Below the pieces are notes generated by a model, which worked only from the letters and a program-made list of their open reading frames with translations, was not told where the DNA came from and made no database searches. The position numbers and the translations under genes were made by a program. Positions 23,858 through 39,124 of a DNA stretch of 59,934 nt are shown here, piece by piece. The stretch lies in NCBI GenBank assembly GCA_021731025.1, contig JAKFYD010000002.1, positions 1-59,934 of the forward strand. The letters run 5' to 3'. Position 1 is the first letter of the stretch. The number at the start of each line of letters is the position of its first letter. Origin of the DNA: Pseudobdellovibrionaceae bacterium. Lineage in GTDB: Bacteria > Bdellovibrionota > Bdellovibrionia > Bdellovibrionales > Bdellovibrionaceae.

Positions 23858-24469
23858 TCAATGCCCACTCAGCCACCAGTCGGTGGCTTCGAGTGGATTC
23901 TGAAAAAGTCGATCGGGAACAAATTTAGCTTCGGGCTCTTCCGGAATATAAGGGAAGCCCGCACCACCCAGAACGCCGATCGATGTAATTCCAAAACCTT
24001 TCGCACATTCGACATCTCTCCAAGTGTCTCCGATCATAAAAGAACGAGCTTTCTCGATGGGATATTCCTTCGCGGCTTGCAACAGCATTCCTGATTTAGG
24101 TTTACGACAATTACAGTCTATGGAAAATTCAGGTAAAGTTCCGCCGACGCGATGGGGACAAAAATAAATATGGTCAATGCGTGCGCCTTGTTTTAAGAGC
24201 TCTTGCTTCATGTACTCGTGAACTTTTTGGAGCTCGTCCCAAGTCATTTTTTGTTTAGCGATGTTGGGCTGATTGGTAGCCACAAAAACCCAGTAATTGG
24301 CTTCGTTCAACTTTCGAATCGCCTCGGCAATTCCTTTGCGAAATTGAAATTGATCGATTCGTGAAAGTTCATCGACGAATTCACAGATAACTCCATCACG
24401 ATCGAAAAAGGCAGCCGGTTTTAATTTCAATGCGTCTTGCTCCATATTTTTATTTAGCACTAACCTCAT
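23858..24469 (-). CDS. HAD-IIIA phosphatase, GmhB-like
   Basis: 203 residues. AFFDRDGVI carries the nucleophile and acid (DxD). VFVATNQP is motif II. The zinc loop reads CPH ... CNCRKPKSGM, as in D-glycero-D-manno-heptose-1,7-bisphosphate 7-phosphatase and the HisB phosphatase domain. GDTWRDVECAK holds the Mg aspartates. The expected reaction is removal of the 7-phosphate in ADP- or GDP-heptose synthesis; histidinol phosphate is less likely in this context. Start uncertain: ATG 24469 has no ribosome site, and ATG 24445 eight codons in is possible. Confidence 0.82.
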   Translation of the reverse strand: MRLVLNKNMEQDALKLKPAAFFDRDGVICEFVDELSRIDQFQFRKGIAEAIRKLNEANYWVFVATNQPNIAKQKMTWDELQKVHEYMKQELLKQGARIDHIYFCPHRVGGTLPEFSIDCNCRKPKSGMLLQAAKEYPIEKARSFMIGDTWRDVECAKGFGITSIGVLGGAGFPYIPEEPEAKFVPDRLFQNPLEATDWWLSGH

Positions 24470-26635: not shown

Positions 26636-27523
26636 GTGATTTTGAAGATACTCGTAACAGGTGCAACGTCAAAACTGGGACAAGCTTTAATTCCCGAACT
26701 GCTCAAAAATTCAGCCATCGAAAAACTTTATATTTTATCTCGCACGAAGCGGCCTTCCGGCATCTTTCAACTTTTGAATGACAGTCGCCTTGAACATCTT
26801 CAAGGTGATATCTGCAAGGAGCTTTTCTTTCTCGATCATCTTAAAAACTTGGATCTTTGCATTCATATGGCCGCTGTCACTCACTCGAAGGACGAGCAAG
26901 AATATTTTGAAGTGAACGAGATGGGCACCAAGAAATTGGCCGATCGACTTTACAGCAATGGATGCAAGGAATTTATTTTTGTCAGCAGTCACACCGCAGG
27001 CTTGAATGCGGGTGCATACGCTGAATCCAAATTTCTTGCCGAAAAATATCTTTTCTCGATGCCCTGGAACCAACTCTTAGTTTTGCGCCCTTCTGAAATT
27101 GTTGGGGCCGGATCCCAAGAAGGCCTTGATAAACTGGAAAACATCGCTCGAAAATTTAAAATTTACCCTTGTCTCATTGGACTGCGAGAAATCGTATTTT
27201 CTCCGACAAGGATTGAAGAAATTGTGCGGTTTATCGCCGGTACCCTCAACGAAGATTTGCAGGGAAATCGCGTGCAAATTGTTCGGGGACCAACAGTGAC
27301 ATCCATTCAGCTCATTGAATATTTCTGGAAAAAATATCACGCTATGCCCATTCCCGTATTTATTCCGCTGTTACAGATTGTTTCAAAAGTTCTTTCGCTG
27401 GCAGGGGTTCACCTCTTTGCACCCGACCAAATCGCTCGGCTGTCGGGGGCTCGTGGACAAAAATCATCTTACAAATCTCCTCTGGAAGAGGTGATTTTAG
27501 AGTCACCTTTTAGACTGAACTGA
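26636..27523 (+). CDS. NAD-dependent sugar epimerase/dehydratase (SDR)
   Basis: 295 residues of the extended SDR family. ILVTGATSKLGQ is the NAD-binding loop, LDLCIHMAAVTH and FVSSHTAGL the next strands, and AYAESKFLAEKYL contains the catalytic YxxxK. It is of the size and type of nucleotide-sugar 4-epimerases or reductases; the substrate is unknown. The start is GTG 26636 or TTG 26642; the latter has GGAG at good spacing. It overlaps the convergent HAD phosphatase gene by 14 bp. Confidence 0.75.
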   Translation: MILKILVTGATSKLGQALIPELLKNSAIEKLYILSRTKRPSGIFQLLNDSRLEHLQGDICKELFFLDHLKNLDLCIHMAAVTHSKDEQEYFEVNEMGTKKLADRLYSNGCKEFIFVSSHTAGLNAGAYAESKFLAEKYLFSMPWNQLLVLRPSEIVGAGSQEGLDKLENIARKFKIYPCLIGLREIVFSPTRIEEIVRFIAGTLNEDLQGNRVQIVRGPTVTSIQLIEYFWKKYHAMPIPVFIPLLQIVSKVLSLAGVHLFAPDQIARLSGARGQKSSYKSPLEEVILESPFRLN

Positions 27524-28196
27524 GTGGAATTAAAATTTCATTGAGGTCTTGAACCCAAGGAAAATTTTCTGAGCTTTCAGGTTGCAAAAACTCCCGAGTG
27601 CCAATCACTTGAGCACCCATATCTTTTAAAGGCTTAAGATCATTGGTGACAGAATCACCGATCATTAAACAATCCTGGGGCTTCAAACCGGCCCTTCGAA
27701 AAACTTCTGCAAATATTTTTGGATCTGGCTTTTCCGCACCGATCTCTTCCGACGTGATCATAAACTCAAAAACTTCATTTTTGGGATCTAGGGCGTTGAG
27801 CTTTACCACTTGAGTTCGTGTTGTTTCGTTGGTGACCAAGGCCAAACGATATTGCTTTTTGAGTTCCAAAAACAGAGCTGCTCGCTGAAGCAAAATCCAT
27901 TGTTCTCGCATGTAGGACTGAAGCAATTCTTCGTAATGAGAAATCATTTTCAGCAAAGCTTCTGGGGAAAACTGAGATTTGAGTTCTAAATATCTTTTAA
28001 AATAGAGAAAACGTTGATGATTAGAAACATGTCGCGAGCCTAAATTCGTTTTGATCCAAGTTTTGGCCTCGGTAAATACAGGCAAATCTAACTTCATATC
28101 TTGATAACATTTTTGGTAAATTTCGGTTGACCCAACTAAGGTGTCATCCAAATCAAAAAGAATCAGTTGAGGTTTACGGATTAACGTTATAGTCAC
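27510..28196 (-). CDS. HAD-IA phosphatase
   Basis: 228 residues with every catalytic motif: LFDLDDTLVG (nucleophile and acid), LVTNET (motif II Thr), GAEKPDPKIF (motif III Lys) and MIGDSVTNDL (motif IV Asp). The helical cap lies at about 20-90. The group includes phosphoglycolate and sugar-phosphate phosphatases. It lies divergently from the aldolase/nucleotidyltransferase operon, across 87 bp, and could dephosphorylate an intermediate of that pathway. Start is GTG at 28196. Confidence 0.8.
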   Translation of the reverse strand: MTITLIRKPQLILFDLDDTLVGSTEIYQKCYQDMKLDLPVFTEAKTWIKTNLGSRHVSNHQRFLYFKRYLELKSQFSPEALLKMISHYEELLQSYMREQWILLQRAALFLELKKQYRLALVTNETTRTQVVKLNALDPKNEVFEFMITSEEIGAEKPDPKIFAEVFRRAGLKPQDCLMIGDSVTNDLKPLKDMGAQVIGTREFLQPESSENFPWVQDLNEILIPLSSV

Positions 28197-28283: not shown

Positions 28284-29225
28284 ATGCCAAAAATTAAAGA
28301 ATTACTTGAAATGAATGACTACTGCCTACGCCAGGGAATTTTTTGGCTGCAAGGCCCCGGCGGAAACACTTCGCTGAAAGATAAACAACAGCAGATATTA
28401 AATATTAAACCCTCGGGCTATCGACTGGAAAAAGTAAAAAGCGAAAAGGATTTATCTCAGGTTAAATTGGATCGATTTCTAACTGACTTTAAACAAGTTG
28501 AAAATGCTGTTAACAACGAAGAAAAAGAAACTCTGTACAAAGACTTGATTGGCGTCAGCACCATAACCACGGATCGACGACCCAGCATGGAAACAGGATT
28601 TCACGCTGTCCTGCCTGATGATTTTGTTTTTCACATTCACAGCCTGGTCGCCGTTCTGGTTTGTGACATGGACCATTCGCAAAAAAATAAATTTAAAAGT
28701 TGGTACTCGAAAGACTGGCAAAAAACTCTCGGTGAGCTAACTGAGGTGGACGCCGTGATGCCCGGGGCTGAGCTCGCATTATCCCTGCAGAAGGTAAAGA
28801 ACTTTCCTGTGATCTTTCTTAAAAATCATGGAGCCATCCTTCAGTTCAATGATTCGGACCGCTTAGAAAAATATCAAAGTTTCGAGCTCGCCGTGCTGAA
28901 AGAATTTTTTCCAAAAGGGATTTTATTTCGTTCCTTGCAAACCTTTCCCAAGGATCTTTTAAAAGGCCCCATTAAGTTTTATTTTCCTGACTTTGTGATT
29001 CTATTTCCACGGATTAATAAATTCCTGACGAAAATGGACGAAGACACTTACCAGCTCAGCGAAAAGGCTGAAAAAGACGATCCTGATGTCTATGAAAATT
29101 GGATGGCCACCCAGATTCTTTATCACATTAAGCCCCAGCTCAAAGAACTTCCCATGGACATTATTCAAAAAGTCCCTTATTTACCTACGGAATTGGTCCG
29201 AAAAAAAATAATGGAGACTCCATGA
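28284..29225 (+). CDS. Class II aldolase/adducin-family protein
   Basis: 313 residues. It has the fold and residues of RhaD/FucA-type class II aldolases: GPGGNTSLK (phosphate-binding loop), ETGFHAVL (glutamate plus His), FHIHSLVAV (two zinc histidines) and LKNHGAIL (third His region). Class II aldolases cleave or form C-C bonds between dihydroxyacetone phosphate or glycolaldehyde-like units and an aldehyde; related proteins are epimerases. The 100 C-terminal residues are extra. First gene of a four-gene operon whose members overlap by four bases. In this glycan context I infer a biosynthetic role, perhaps building an unusual sugar or polyol. Confidence 0.78.
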   Translation: MPKIKELLEMNDYCLRQGIFWLQGPGGNTSLKDKQQQILNIKPSGYRLEKVKSEKDLSQVKLDRFLTDFKQVENAVNNEEKETLYKDLIGVSTITTDRRPSMETGFHAVLPDDFVFHIHSLVAVLVCDMDHSQKNKFKSWYSKDWQKTLGELTEVDAVMPGAELALSLQKVKNFPVIFLKNHGAILQFNDSDRLEKYQSFELAVLKEFFPKGILFRSLQTFPKDLLKGPIKFYFPDFVILFPRINKFLTKMDEDTYQLSEKAEKDDPDVYENWMATQILYHIKPQLKELPMDIIQKVPYLPTELVRKKIMETP

Positions 29226-30808
29226 ACATCCAGCTGGTGATTCCGATGTCGGGGAAAGGGACCCGCTATCAAAAGGCGGGTTATACCCAGCCAAAGCCTT
29301 TGATTCCCGTCAATGGCACTCCGATGATCCAACGCTTACTAGAAAAATTCCCCATCGAGTGGCCTTGCACCTTTGTGCATTCGGAAATTCATCAGCAAAC
29401 AGATCTTCCTGCTTTTCTTCGAAAATTAAGACCTCAAGGAAAAATCATAAGTCTCCCTTGGCATGGCAAGGGACCTTCGTATGCTTTGAAAGCGGCTTTG
29501 AAAGAGCTTAATGATAAGGATCCCATTCTTGTTTCCTACTGCGATTATGGAATGCAATGGGACCCCTGGGATTTTAAAAATTTTGTTCAGCAAAGCCAGT
29601 GCGATGCCGCTTTGATTTCTTACAAAGGATTTCACGCCCATTATCTTTCGCCGGTGATGTACGCCTATTCTCGAATGGAAAATGGTCTCGTTAAAGAGGT
29701 CAAAGAAAAAGGATGTTTCACTGACAATCGCGAAAATGAATTTGCTTCAGCGGGTGCCTACTATTTTCGGAATCGAGAAATTCTCCAGGCCGCATTAGAT
29801 TACCAAGAAAAAAACAATCTTTCAATGAATGGCGAATTTTACACCAGCCTCACTGTTGAGGCTCTGCTGCGAATGAACCCAGCAGCTAAAGTTAAAGTTT
29901 ACGAGATCCCCGCTTTTTACCAATGGGGAACTCCTCAAGATTTGAAAATTTTCGAATATTGGGAAAGAACTTATGCCAATCTGCTCAAAACAGAAAATCT
30001 TCACAGCCAAGATAATCTTCAGGTGCTAATGCCCATGGCCGGATTAGGAAGTCGATTCAAAGATTTTTTCAATACGCCGAAACCTTTTTTGAAAATCGAT
30101 CAAGTCCCAATGTATCGCAAGGCTTTGCAATCTCTCCCCCGTGGATCGAAGAACCATTATGTAACGATCGAAGCCGCGAAAAAATTTTTGCAGCTTGAAA
30201 ATAATGAAACGGCATTTTTCCTGGATAAAACTCCCGAGGGTCAGGCTCTCAGTGTTGAAGCTGGCTTGTCTTTGTTGAATCCCGATCAAGAAATTATCGT
30301 CAGCGCCTGTGATCATGGAATTGTTTTGCCTTTCTCGACTTGGAAAGCTTTTCGACAATCTCCAGATCAACCTGATGCTGCGATTTTTACTGTCACAGGA
30401 TTTCCTGGGACTCAACGACGTCCTGAAGCCTTTGCCTACGTTAAAACTTTACCTGCTGCCGAGGGAGCTTTTGCTGATGTTCAACAGGTCTCTGTCAAAA
30501 AACCAATTTCAGAAGATCCTGCACAGGATCCTCTGCTGGTCGGAACATTTTGGTTTAAGAATAAATCCATCTTGGAAAAAGCCATTCAACTTTTGAAAAA
30601 GAATAACCTCCGAGTGAACGGCGAACTTTATTTAGATTCTGTTTTTGATTTACTGATTGCTGAAGGTCATAAAGTTAAAATAGTTCCCTTAGATGGTTAC
30701 ATCAACTGGGGTGATCCTGATTCTTTAGCGGAAGCTTTGTACTGGGCCGAAGTTTTTGGTGGGCATAAAAATTCTGTTCGTTCCCGATTTGCTGGAGTCA
30801 CCGAATGA
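29222..30808 (+). CDS. Tandem double sugar nucleotidyltransferase
   Basis: 528 residues made of two NTP_transferase domains. Repeat 1 (about 1-250): VIPMSGKGTRYQ ... QPKPLIPV, then SYCDYG (metal Asp), MNGEFYTSL and YQWGTPQDL. Repeat 2 (about 265-520): LMPMAGLGSRFK ... TPKPFLKI, SACDHG, VNGELYLDSV and INWGDPDSL. Both repeats keep the Gly-rich loop, the PKP lysine and the metal aspartate, so both could be active. They would form NDP-sugars or related NDP-activated compounds from a phosphate and an NTP. Overlaps both neighbours by ATGA. The base and the substrate cannot be told. Confidence 0.85.
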   Translation: MNIQLVIPMSGKGTRYQKAGYTQPKPLIPVNGTPMIQRLLEKFPIEWPCTFVHSEIHQQTDLPAFLRKLRPQGKIISLPWHGKGPSYALKAALKELNDKDPILVSYCDYGMQWDPWDFKNFVQQSQCDAALISYKGFHAHYLSPVMYAYSRMENGLVKEVKEKGCFTDNRENEFASAGAYYFRNREILQAALDYQEKNNLSMNGEFYTSLTVEALLRMNPAAKVKVYEIPAFYQWGTPQDLKIFEYWERTYANLLKTENLHSQDNLQVLMPMAGLGSRFKDFFNTPKPFLKIDQVPMYRKALQSLPRGSKNHYVTIEAAKKFLQLENNETAFFLDKTPEGQALSVEAGLSLLNPDQEIIVSACDHGIVLPFSTWKAFRQSPDQPDAAIFTVTGFPGTQRRPEAFAYVKTLPAAEGAFADVQQVSVKKPISEDPAQDPLLVGTFWFKNKSILEKAIQLLKKNNLRVNGELYLDSVFDLLIAEGHKVKIVPLDGYINWGDPDSLAEALYWAEVFGGHKNSVRSRFAGVTE

Positions 30809-31542
30809 TAAAATTTGAATTGGTTCTTCCCTGCTACAACGAATCCAAATCTTTGGTTTATTTGATTCAAAGAGCTCGGCAAGCGGCGCTAGAGCATGGC
30901 TTCCAAGAGGGTGAATTTCGTTTAGTGATGGTGGAAAATGGAAGCCGAGATGATTCCCGAAAAGTTTTTGCCGAGTTGGAAAAATCAGAATGGGCGAAGT
31001 GGTTCAAAGTCGTTATCATTGAAGTTAATCAAGGCTATGGCTACGGACTGTGGCAGGGATTAAAATCGACTGAAGCTCCTATTGTGGGCTGGTCCCATGC
31101 AGATCAGCAATGCGATCCTACGGATGCCTTCAAAGCTTATAAAATTTTGAAGCAACAAGAGCCAACAACTCATCAAGTTTTTGTCAAAGGTGTTCGTCAC
31201 GGCCGCAATTGGAAAGACATCATGGTCAGCCGCGTGTTCGAATTTTTAGCTTGGCTGATCCTAGGGGTTAAAATCTACGAAATGAATGCTCAACCAAAGA
31301 TCTTTCACCGTTCTTTGCTCGAGCGAATGCAAAATCCTCCAAAAACTTTTGCCTTCGATTTGTACGCCATTTATCATGCGCAAAAGAACAGTTTTAAATT
31401 TGAAACGGTCTCAGTTCAATTTCCTCCGCGAGTTCACGGGCTCTCCAATTGGTCATCGCACTTTCTTTCCCGTTATAAAACGATTCTGGGGATCATTCGC
31501 TACATGATTTCCCTTTGTAAAACTGAAGGCCGTGTCCGATGA
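30805..31542 (+). CDS. Family 2 glycosyltransferase
   Basis: 245 residues. FELVLPCYNESKSLVYLI begins the GT2 fold and LVMVENGSRDDS is the nucleotide-binding Asp region. The metal motif is unusual, WSHADQQCDP, where polyprenyl-phosphate-sugar synthases have D(A/G)D.Q.P. EMNAQPKIFHRSLLERM matches the family's NSQ(P/A)K..R loop. It probably transfers a sugar, perhaps the product of the neighbouring nucleotidyltransferase, to a polyprenyl phosphate or the growing glycan. Coupled by ATGA overlaps on both sides. Confidence 0.75.
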   Translation: MIKFELVLPCYNESKSLVYLIQRARQAALEHGFQEGEFRLVMVENGSRDDSRKVFAELEKSEWAKWFKVVIIEVNQGYGYGLWQGLKSTEAPIVGWSHADQQCDPTDAFKAYKILKQQEPTTHQVFVKGVRHGRNWKDIMVSRVFEFLAWLILGVKIYEMNAQPKIFHRSLLERMQNPPKTFAFDLYAIYHAQKNSFKFETVSVQFPPRVHGLSNWSSHFLSRYKTILGIIRYMISLCKTEGRVR

Positions 31543-33566
31543 ATTTTTCCGGCGAAAGATGGCTGATCTTCAGAAATAAATATTTTTTAGCTGGCTTGTT
31601 GATTAAATTTTTATGTCTCTTCGTTTTCGGCAGCGAATATCTGCACAATTATTTTATTCCCTTCATCGATAATTCCCTTCTCCAATTTGGGGACAACCCC
31701 TGGAGCCTTTCTCCTCCGGAATATTTTCCCTATGGAGCTTTTCTTTATTTGTGTTTGATCATCCCCAAAGGAATTTTATTTCTCATTTTTGGAGAGAGCG
31801 CACTAAGTTCGACAGTCTTAAGTCTTTTCGGAATAAAAATTGTTTTACTTGCATTTGATACTCTCCTTTTTTGGGTTCTGACCCGCTGGGCCCTTCGAGC
31901 TGGGCCACAAATGGTTTTCTATTATTGGCTCAATCCCATTTTGTTTTACATCACTTATGTCTATGGCCAATTGGATGTGGTTTCTATCAGCTTACTTGCA
32001 ACTTCATTATTTCTTTTATTTAAGAACAAAATCCACTGGGCCAGCTTGCTCTTTGGCCTCGCCATTGCCTCAAAATTCCATGTGATCATCGTTGCTCCTT
32101 TTATTGCCGCTTATATATGGAACCGTTTCTTTAAAACGGATGCTCTTAAAAAATTGATCCAATCGTCTTTGATTGTTCTCGCTAGCATTGTCTTTGGCTT
32201 TCTTCCCGTGGCACTCAGTTCGCACTTTGATTACGCGACAACAGGATCTCCTGAAGCCCAGCGAGTTTTCGCCGCCAAAATTATTTTTAATGACGAAAGT
32301 TATCTCTACGTTGGACTGCTGCTCTTGTTTCTTGTTTTAGGTCGTTTGATTTTTTCCACAAAGATCACTCAACGGGGACTTGTTTATGGTTGTGGGCTTT
32401 TATTGGGAGTTCTCCTGCTAATAACGAATCCCATGCCAGGCTGGTACTTTTGGGTGATTCCTTTTCTGAGTTTATTCTACGTGCACTACCCGACTGCTCC
32501 AAAACTTTTGCTTTTAGCTATCGTTCTTGCTTATTTCAGTTATTTTGTCCTTGCACCACAACTTCAGCTTTCACTTTTCTTGAATAATCTTTCATTAACC
32601 CTGCTGCAAACGGCACTGCTAAGCCTATTGTTAGCTTTGTACCACGTAGCGATCAAAGCTGAATCCCCTTTGAAAAATCGGCTGAAGCCTTTGCTTATTG
32701 GTCTGAGTGGAGATTCTGGCGCCGGCAAGAATCATCTTACTTCTCTGATGCAAAACATTTTGGGTCTCGATAATTGTATTATGATTGAGGGTGACAATTA
32801 TCACAAATGGGAGCGTGGCAATAAGAACTGGGATCTGGTGACTCACCTGAACCCACAAGCTAATGATCTTTCCAAATTACGGGAGCACACCGAAAGCATT
32901 TCTAAAGGCCAGGCGATCGAGCATCACCATTATGATCACAGCACGGGGAAGTTCACTCAATCCCATCTGTTTGCACCTGCAAAATCTATCGTGATTCAGG
33001 GATTGCACTCCTTGTATTTAAAAGGCCTTCGCGAATCTTTAGATCTGAAAATCTTTTTAAATCCATCGGAAAAGGTACGGCTGTATTGGAAAATTAAAAG
33101 AGATGTCATGGAACGCGGGCATAGCTTAGAAAAAGTTTTATCTACTATCGAAAAACGAAAATCTGATTCTTTGAAACACATTCAGCCCCAAAAAGAAAAA
33201 TCAGATTGGACCATAGAGCTAGACAGCCTGGAAGAGTTTGATCCCACCGATTGGAAAAACATCCAAAGTCTTCCTTTGCTTGTTAAATACACTCTCTACA
33301 ATGACGAAAATATTTCTGAACTCGTCGACAACCTTCGGTTGCACAGATTAGATGTGAGCTTGGATTTCCAAGAAGACAATTTTGATAAAGCCATCGTGAA
33401 AGTTTCTGGAAGCATCACTGCTGACGAAATTAGCAATATTGCCCACGAACTTTTCCCTGATTTAAGAAGCTTGACTCGCAATCGCGAACATCCTGTTTTT
33501 GTCGCGAATCTGGATGGAGTTCATCAGTTGTTTTTCTTGTGCTTTTTGAAAAAGCGGATTGGGTGA
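31539..33566 (+). CDS. Polytopic membrane (GT-C-like) protein fused to a phosphoribulokinase-like kinase domain
   Basis: 675 residues. Residues about 1-375 carry roughly ten membrane helices, with YYWLNPILFYITYVYGQLDV resembling GT-C mannosyltransferases (PIG-M-like). Residues about 385-560 match class II phosphoribulokinase/uridine kinase: the P-loop GDSGAGKN (391-398), EGDNYHKW (417-424), HLNPQAND, IVIQGLHSLY (484-493), then WKIKRDVMERGHSLEKVL and a PQK segment. Two expected Mg-site residues differ: the P-loop Ser/Thr is Asn398, and the Glu of the EGLHP motif is Gln487. About 100 further residues follow. A membrane sugar transferase joined to such a kinase is an architecture I do not know. 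Last gene of the operon. Confidence 0.75.
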   Translation: MNFSGERWLIFRNKYFLAGLLIKFLCLFVFGSEYLHNYFIPFIDNSLLQFGDNPWSLSPPEYFPYGAFLYLCLIIPKGILFLIFGESALSSTVLSLFGIKIVLLAFDTLLFWVLTRWALRAGPQMVFYYWLNPILFYITYVYGQLDVVSISLLATSLFLLFKNKIHWASLLFGLAIASKFHVIIVAPFIAAYIWNRFFKTDALKKLIQSSLIVLASIVFGFLPVALSSHFDYATTGSPEAQRVFAAKIIFNDESYLYVGLLLLFLVLGRLIFSTKITQRGLVYGCGLLLGVLLLITNPMPGWYFWVIPFLSLFYVHYPTAPKLLLLAIVLAYFSYFVLAPQLQLSLFLNNLSLTLLQTALLSLLLALYHVAIKAESPLKNRLKPLLIGLSGDSGAGKNHLTSLMQNILGLDNCIMIEGDNYHKWERGNKNWDLVTHLNPQANDLSKLREHTESISKGQAIEHHHYDHSTGKFTQSHLFAPAKSIVIQGLHSLYLKGLRESLDLKIFLNPSEKVRLYWKIKRDVMERGHSLEKVLSTIEKRKSDSLKHIQPQKEKSDWTIELDSLEEFDPTDWKNIQSLPLLVKYTLYNDENISELVDNLRLHRLDVSLDFQEDNFDKAIVKVSGSITADEISNIAHELFPDLRSLTRNREHPVFVANLDGVHQLFFLCFLKKRIG

Positions 33567-38530: not shown

Positions 38531-39124
38531 TCACGACCACAAATCGGGTCGTTTTGTACAAACAGCGTCCAAAGCTGGCAGCGATTTTCTAAATTCACTG
38601 ATCAAGCCAACATCCCCGCCTTGTAATTCCGGAGAGACCAAACAAACCTTAAAATTTTCTTTAAGACGATTCACAACAATCGCCGGCGGAATTTCCAAAA
38701 AGAAACAGTCGACCCAAACCCACTCACAGCGATTCTTAAATTTTTCACAAAATTCTACGGGTTCGAACTTGGACCAGCGAACAGCAAAAAAGTTTTTGTC
38801 TTCTTTGACCGACCATTTCACCATTGTTGGCAAAGCCGTATCCAAGAAGAAAAAATTCGTAATGCTATGTTGGTTCAATAATTCGAAAATGCGATTTTCT
38901 AAGCCATCTTCTTTGGTATTTAAAATCAAAGGCCCGTTAATCCCAGCCGCCTTGTAATGCTTCAACCATTCCTCAAAATTTTCACCTTCGGCCCAAGCAT
39001 CGTGACTGAGATGCAATTGGCCTTTGTGAGCCACTGAACTTCTGAGATCTATTTCGACGCCATAAGAACGATTAAGGCTATTCAGTTGCTGGGAAGAGTT
39101 ACATCGGTGTTGTATAAGAACCAT
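38531..39124 (-). CDS. Glycerophosphodiester phosphodiesterase-like (PI-PLC superfamily) protein
   Basis: 197 residues, shorter than canonical GDPDs (about 240-300). The core catalytic set is visible near the N-terminus: HRCNS (first His-Arg), GVEIDLR (Glu-Asp metal pair) and LHLSHDAW (second His). The rest fits a compact TIM barrel. It has no signal peptide, so it is cytosolic. It may act on a glycerophosphodiester or, in this glycan setting, on a sugar-phosphate diester. It is divergent from rfbB. Confidence 0.65.
   Translation of the reverse strand: MVLIQHRCNSSQQLNSLNRSYGVEIDLRSSVAHKGQLHLSHDAWAEGENFEEWLKHYKAAGINGPLILNTKEDGLENRIFELLNQHSITNFFFLDTALPTMVKWSVKEDKNFFAVRWSKFEPVEFCEKFKNRCEWVWVDCFFLEIPPAIVVNRLKENFKVCLVSPELQGGDVGLISEFRKSLPALDAVCTKRPDLWS

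Follow-up and report, generated by a model that had tools for sequence, protein, structure and literature searches.

Phosphoribulokinase (PRK) is a textbook enzyme of CO2 fixation, the product of which is RuBP. Sets of genes composed of GtrA, GtrB and a serotype-specific glycosyltransferase modify surface glycans. GPI mannosyltransferase I, ALG3, ALG6 and PimE, which are membrane enzymes of the GT-C fold, use polyprenyl- or dolichyl-phosphate sugars. In haloarchaea, a RuBP phosphatase turns RuBP into ribulose-1-phosphate, which is then cleaved by a FucA-type aldolase (PMC9700705). Residues that contact Ru5P/ATP have been reported for RsPRK (H45, K165, and R168) and MhPRK (H55, R59, Y98, H100, K151, and R154) (PMC5241800), and xylulose has been found in several bacterial polysaccharides (PMC8707391). 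A search of the open-access literature, with most subscription papers outside its reach, turned up no paper that describes the fusion or cassette analyzed here, and no biochemistry on the fusion was found.

The DNA under study (the window) is a stretch of 59,934 nucleotides from a Pseudobdellovibrionaceae bacterium (GenBank assembly GCA_021731025.1, contig JAKFYD010000002.1). An earlier note, made from these letters alone, had read the ORF at 31539-33566 as a membrane transferase fused to a PRK-like kinase. The ORF list, a Pfam PF00485 match and a GT-C fold match confirm that this gene encodes a GT-C membrane glycosyltransferase joined to a complete PRK. The glycosyltransferase half probably adds sugars to the bacterial surface. 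The fusion is the final gene of a tight run (aldolase, double nucleotidyltransferase, GT2, fusion) with successive 4-base overlaps, the last being that of its own ATG with the stop of GT2. No RNA elements were found near the operon, and PADLOC gave no anti-phage defence match among the four cassette proteins tested. The relevant features are as follows.

27510..28196, minus strand: cassette HAD phosphatase, with motifs D15xD17xT19, K156 and D181
28284..29225, plus strand: class II aldolase with a Zn His triad and a FucA-type Glu (PF00596, 44.8 bits; E103, H117, H119 and H182 invariant)
29222..30808, plus strand: double nucleotidyltransferase with two NTP_transf domains (PF12804, 69.4 bits, two stretches), conserved in cassettes
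30805..31542, plus strand: GT2 glycosyltransferase, DPM1/GtrB-like (PF00535, 50.6 bits), conserved in cassettes
31539..33566, plus strand: GT-C glycosyltransferase/PRK fusion, a 675 aa ORF with an ATG start (PF00485, 121 bits)
31551..32660, plus strand: GT-C membrane domain, residues ~5-374, with 12 predicted TM helices and both termini predicted cytoplasmic
32664..33563, plus strand: complete PRK module, residues ~376-675, P-loop kinase core plus PRK C-terminal domain (Z 27.2 to 9qkp)
32730..32732, plus strand: codon of Asn398, the P-loop Ser/Thr position
32793..32795, plus strand: codon of Asp419, the PRK catalytic-base Asp, present in 34/34 fusions
32997..32999, plus strand: codon of Gln487, the Walker-B Glu position
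38531..39124, minus strand: small GDPD-like protein with HR, ExD and H motifs, of a BLAST family present in 29/30 cassettes; the window copy lies 5 kb away

The kinase half belongs to the PRK/uridine kinase family, as the profile search proposed in the earlier note bears out: PF00485 matches residues 386-560 with 121.1 bits (cut-off 22). The NCBIfam model PRK07429 (NF005655) matches residues 382-641 with 202.6 bits, which is under its cut-off of 236. A sequence profile of the fusion aligns with 9qko over residues 385-638 (1.7e-57). We also modeled the fusion with AlphaFold2 from a 6-row alignment (mean pLDDT 80, pTM 0.57), the relative placement of the two halves being unreliable in this model. 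Residues 381-675 superpose on the cyanobacteria-specific PRK 9qkp with a Z score of 27.2 over 286 residues, and the PRK half matches Methanospirillum hungatei PRK 5b3f with a Z score of 25.1. The last 100 residues, previously left unassigned, are in fact the PRK C-terminal domain, as assessed by profile, Foldseek and fold alignment. Genome G000 has no further PF00485 protein above the cut-off.

The model of the membrane half (residues 5-385) matches GPI mannosyltransferase I bound to Dol-P-Man (9wno) with a Z score of 26.9 over 348 residues, ALG6 (6snh) with 23.9 and PimE (9dm5) with 18.8. ALG3 is also among the fold matches, for which Foldseek was run too, and an alignment profile of this half reaches GPI mannosyltransferase 1 at 3.9e-6. 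Pfam GT87 scores 17.7 bits, under its cut-off of 25. In a 12-helix topology built from the AlphaFold2 model and GT-C precedent, K+R per residue is 0.251 on the cytoplasmic side versus 0.043 outside (29 fusions). The kinase half should therefore face the cytoplasm, where the PRK module is predicted to reside. When the Asp of the first periplasmic loop was checked, D44 was found to be conserved in the window's clade and replaced by N, G, T, K and others in the remaining clades; D107, D146, and K179 are conserved.

The fusion is present in more than 30 genomes or records, including Bdellovibrionota, other lineages known from metagenome-assembled genomes (MAGs), Azospirillum, Hirschia and E. coli plasmids. 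Within the family 5 of 66 genomes carry it, and within the phylum 20 of 369, a few of these hits being cut by contig ends. Other carriers are MAGs labeled Oligoflexales, Alphaproteobacteria, Patescibacteria or simply "bacterium", and further relatives of these; for single contigs MAG labels may be wrong. In Azospirillum brasilense, Hirschia baltica and E. coli the fusion is plasmid-borne (in E. coli on an IncR plasmid), and the last species has it in 2 of 5,426 complete genomes, each time on a plasmid. In all complete members seen, the kinase module is fused to the transferase. A complete cassette whose kinase has Asp and Ser at the positions of Asn398 and Gln487 (D/S) is carried by a small IncR plasmid of E. 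coli, with IS26 in the vicinity (L075 6022-14984; NZ_CP145712.1). Genome G283 has both an N/Q and a D/N fusion (L048 and L062), each adjoining its own HAD gene. One fusion ORF, of 1059 aa, is longer than the others (L093 7887-11066).

The earlier note had expected Asn398 and Gln487 to lie near Mg2+, and alignment with solved PRKs, on which this metal-site assignment rests rather than on measured distances, agrees: Asn398 takes the place of the P-loop Ser/Thr and Gln487 that of the Glu in EGLHP. The P-loop of the window protein reads GDSGAGK-N398 and so departs from Walker A GxxxxGK[S/T], with N in 13 fusions and D or H in others. Its Walker-B segment, V-I-Q487-GLH, lacks the acid of EGLHP. Because 13 fusions have both residues, Asn398 and Gln487 are not sequencing errors. 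It had been asked whether relatives keep N and Q; they do so in the window's own clade, and other clades differ. The pairs found elsewhere are D/V, H/I, D/S, D/N, S/A, T/S, T/A, S/S, and the normal T/E and S/E. A tree built without columns 398 and 487 groups the fusions into clades with T/S+E (5 rows), N+Q (12), D/H+V/I (4), D+S/N (5), and S/T+A/S (7). An acid is absent at both positions in 20 of the 33 fusions on the tree, and several fusions have Val, Ile or Ala at 487, residues that cannot hold metal. In the D clades the acid has in effect shifted from 487 to 398, a possible swap in D/S and D/V members. N/Q, S/A and H/I members lack an acid at both positions, and none that obviously replaces it was found at other sites; in N/Q kinases no compensating acid stands out near the site.

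The catalytic Asp, the P-loop Lys, the lid residues and the pentulose-phosphate site do not vary. Among 34 fusions, 22 residues of the kinase module are invariant, and 19 of these are identical in stand-alone PRKs. They include G391, S393, G396, K397, D419, H422, R426, and N442, as well as Y465, H467, K518, R521, D522, and R526. By motif order and alignment, not coordinates, the reported PRK contacts (PMC5241800) correspond to H422, R426, Y465, H467, K518, and R521 of the fusion. As a control, all 29 stand-alone PRK/uridine-kinase relatives checked retain S/T in column 398, Asp in 419 and D/E in 487. When the N/Q and T/E clades were compared under a 12/13 versus 4/5 rule, 398 and 487 were the only columns out of 292 in the kinase module fixed differently; a stricter rule leaves 487 alone and a looser one gives 398, 447, and 487. 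Considering that these are the sole differing columns and that the stand-alone control is uniform, the substitution looks specific and selected rather than the product of decay. For a formal test of whether changes at 398 and 487 coincide across independent branches, the tree offered too few events.

The fusion nearly always lies in a cassette with a class II aldolase, a protein with two nucleotidyltransferase domains, a GT2 glycosyltransferase, a GDPD-like protein, a HAD phosphatase and sometimes GtrA. Across 30 loci, a table that excludes L039 and the short contigs L081, L084, and L088, homologues were found of the GDPD-like protein in 29, the aldolase, nucleotidyltransferase and GT2 in 27 each, and the HAD in 26, several absences being contig ends. 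The N/Q fusion of genome G042 (L039) has no cassette neighbor within about 10 kb. GtrA occurs in some loci and was not found beside the window's fusion. The catalytic motifs of the aldolase, HAD and GDPD-like partners are intact, with H6, R7, E24, D26, and H41 conserved in the last, which has no Pfam match and nothing significant against solved structures. Two aldolases were scanned against a Ru1P-aldolase model, and one reaches it, with 24 bits.

Other genes were noted near cassettes. The product of L074 8724-10367, adjoining the Azospirillum cassette, matches the NCBIfam model AZOBR_p60025, "cell surface glycopolymer formation protein", with 190 bits (cut-off 150), and uncharacterized proteins of ~550 aa similar to it flank several cassettes. 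Upstream in the window, 23858-24469 encodes a GmhB-like phosphatase of the HAD-IIIA type, which scores 137 bits against PRK08942 (cut-off 178). An SDR and another GT2 accompany it, and it lies outside the conserved cassette.

The cassette HAD of the window is the sole RuBP-5-phosphatase-like match in its genome (E<=1e-18), though a diverged one (71-76 bits). At this threshold the model hits 21 proteins in 20 of 26 fusion genomes, all 21 in the cassette by coordinates, and it matches 4 of 14 control genomes. For HADs beside T/E, D/S, S/A, T/S, and D/V kinases, RuBP-5-phosphatase is the best NCBIfam match, at 141-190 bits. In the N/Q clade most HADs reach 71-91 bits (one 106), and the general HAD family CTE7 ranks first in those scanned. 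Because every cassette HAD is under the NF053830 equivalog cut-off of 330 bits, the relationship to RuBP 5-phosphatase is one of kinship, not identity. That a PRK, a RuBP-phosphatase-like HAD and a FucA-type aldolase occur together in one cassette argues that the cassette handles pentulose (bis)phosphates, and that PRK chemistry is at least ancestral to this handling. The earlier statement that nothing else of the CO2-fixation pathway is here holds for the RuBisCO large chain, for which the genome has no match (RuBisCO_large_N), but overlooked the HAD related to RuBP 5-phosphatase and the FucA-type aldolase.

From the observed anatomy, cassette, residue pattern and predicted topology we infer the substrate, the order of steps and any residual catalysis as follows. 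The six- or seven-gene cassette would make and attach an activated sugar unit of a cell-surface glycan. On the cytoplasmic face, the PRK module would bind a nucleotide through its P-loop together with a pentulose-5-phosphate-like sugar phosphate. In members with an intact (T/E) site, phosphate would be transferred to C1, yielding a 1,5-bisphosphate, from which the HAD phosphatase would remove the 5-phosphate. For the resulting ketose-1-phosphate, the class II aldolase may serve in synthesis or cleavage, and/or the nucleotidyltransferase may activate it. GT2 would load the sugar on polyprenyl phosphate, GtrA, where present, would help flip it, and the GT-C half would transfer it outside. In the window's clade, the P-loop hydroxyl and the Walker-B acid are no longer there to hold Mg2+; phosphotransfer would most likely survive via a rewired site (Asp419- and water-based, or using a different metal), and the kinase step would have been retuned in concert with the likewise diverged HAD.

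We give this reading, in which a pentulose-(bis)phosphate step feeds a polyprenyl-linked surface glycan and the kinase metal site is rewired, a probability of about 45%. It is favored by the complete PRK fold, the invariant Ru5P/ATP-contact residues together with K397, Asp419, D522, and R526, the directed nature of the 398/487 change, the cassette HAD being the genome's RuBP-phosphatase-like protein, and the precedent of RuBP phosphatase and FucA-type aldolase as a proven pair (PMC9700705). Further points in its favor are the cassette conserved over 30 loci, the GT-C fold of enzymes using polyprenyl-phosphate sugars and the predicted cytoplasmic location of the kinase. Against it, the loss of any acid at 398/487 in 20 of 33 fusions would be explained simply by lost catalysis, the HADs fall short of 330 bits and in the window's clade have mostly 71-91 with CTE7 ahead in those scanned, the aldolase match is one of 24 bits, and the G042 fusion stands without a cassette.

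Lost catalysis defines the main rival, a pseudokinase sensor, which we consider a serious possibility and which the sequence evidence does not appear to separate from a rewired kinase. Outside the T/E clade, the PRK module would perform no phosphotransfer and would bind nucleotide and/or sugar phosphate, setting GT-C activity or scaffolding the cassette enzymes. In N/Q, D/V, D/S, and H/I members the two protein Mg ligands have been replaced jointly, and four clades have lost the Walker-B acid, with residues as inert as Ala, Val and Ile in its place, with no new conserved acid standing out near the sites in the N/Q clade, whereas stand-alone relatives never lose these ligands; the constant fusion to the transferase fits as well. 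However, catalytic Asp419, Lys518 and the lid arginines are invariant, the HADs beside D/S, S/A, and D/V kinases are about as RuBP-phosphatase-like as those beside T/E ones, and with no other PF00485 protein in G000 there is nothing else obvious to make the bisphosphate. Of the two options in the earlier note, we thus lean modestly to an unusual kinase over a non-catalytic controlling module. It is unlikely that the fold has been re-used for another phosphoryl or group transfer, with a different donor (e.g. the nucleotide product of the neighboring nucleotidyltransferase) or acceptor, making the ATP-Mg site unneeded. Retention of the acceptor side and P-loop, with a metal side altered differently between clades, would suit such a reuse, but there is no positive sign of another donor, and T/E members in the same cassette look like ordinary kinases. 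We give almost no credence to a PRK that simply serves CO2 fixation, or to a fusion that arose by chance or in assembly, despite the PRK family match, both Mg ligands having changed: the former is rejected by the missing RuBisCO large-chain match and the latter by the same fusion in many independent genomes. The GDPD-like protein has as yet no place in either the rewired-kinase or the pseudokinase scheme.

A bolder extension of the rewired-kinase reading, which we regard as doubtful, is an unrecognized route to an NDP-activated pentulose (e.g. ribulose or xylulose) for surface glycans, using the PRK-type kinase, HAD, aldolase and paired nucleotidyltransferases. In this view the kinase would have become one protein with the GT-C transferase that acts last, and would have kept its function while its Mg2+ site was rewired in several clades. 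A paper on the Yersinia enterocolitica O:10 O-antigen names no aldolase, phosphoribulokinase or uridine kinase and so lends the xylulose-donor idea no support. A whole PRK is a fixed part of what would be a surface-glycan cassette, spread over distant bacteria and plasmids, which supplies intact and replaced Mg2+ sites in the same gene context. This brings two questions within reach of experiment: of what chemistry a P-loop sugar kinase remains capable once its metal ligands are gone, and by which route bacteria might obtain glycan donors of the ketopentose type.

When compared with known systems, the fusion has the entire fold, including the C-terminal domain, in common with cyanobacteria-specific PRK (9qkn, 9qko, and 9qkp) and class II/archaeal PRK (6kev and 5b3f), as well as the catalytic Asp, P-loop Lys, sugar-phosphate site and lid residues. 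Unlike these enzymes, it carries a membrane GT-C half, has in most clades other residues in place of the P-loop Ser/Thr and the Walker-B Glu, and lacks a CO2-fixation context. It shares the membrane fold with GPI mannosyltransferase I (9wno), ALG3, ALG6, and PimE over ~320-350 residues, but at 10-12% identity and with a C-terminal kinase module added. Like the haloarchaeal non-carboxylating pentose bisphosphate pathway (PMC9700705), the cassette has a RuBP-phosphatase-like HAD and a class II FucA-type aldolase, both under equivalog cut-offs; in that pathway RuBP comes from R15P isomerase and is degraded, whereas the cassette includes a PRK-type module and glycan genes. Finally, the cassette resembles sets of GtrA, GtrB and serotype-specific glycosyltransferase in having a DPM1-like GT2, a membrane glycosyltransferase and, in several cases, GtrA, but adds to these an aldolase, a HAD, a double nucleotidyltransferase, a GDPD-like protein and the kinase fusion.
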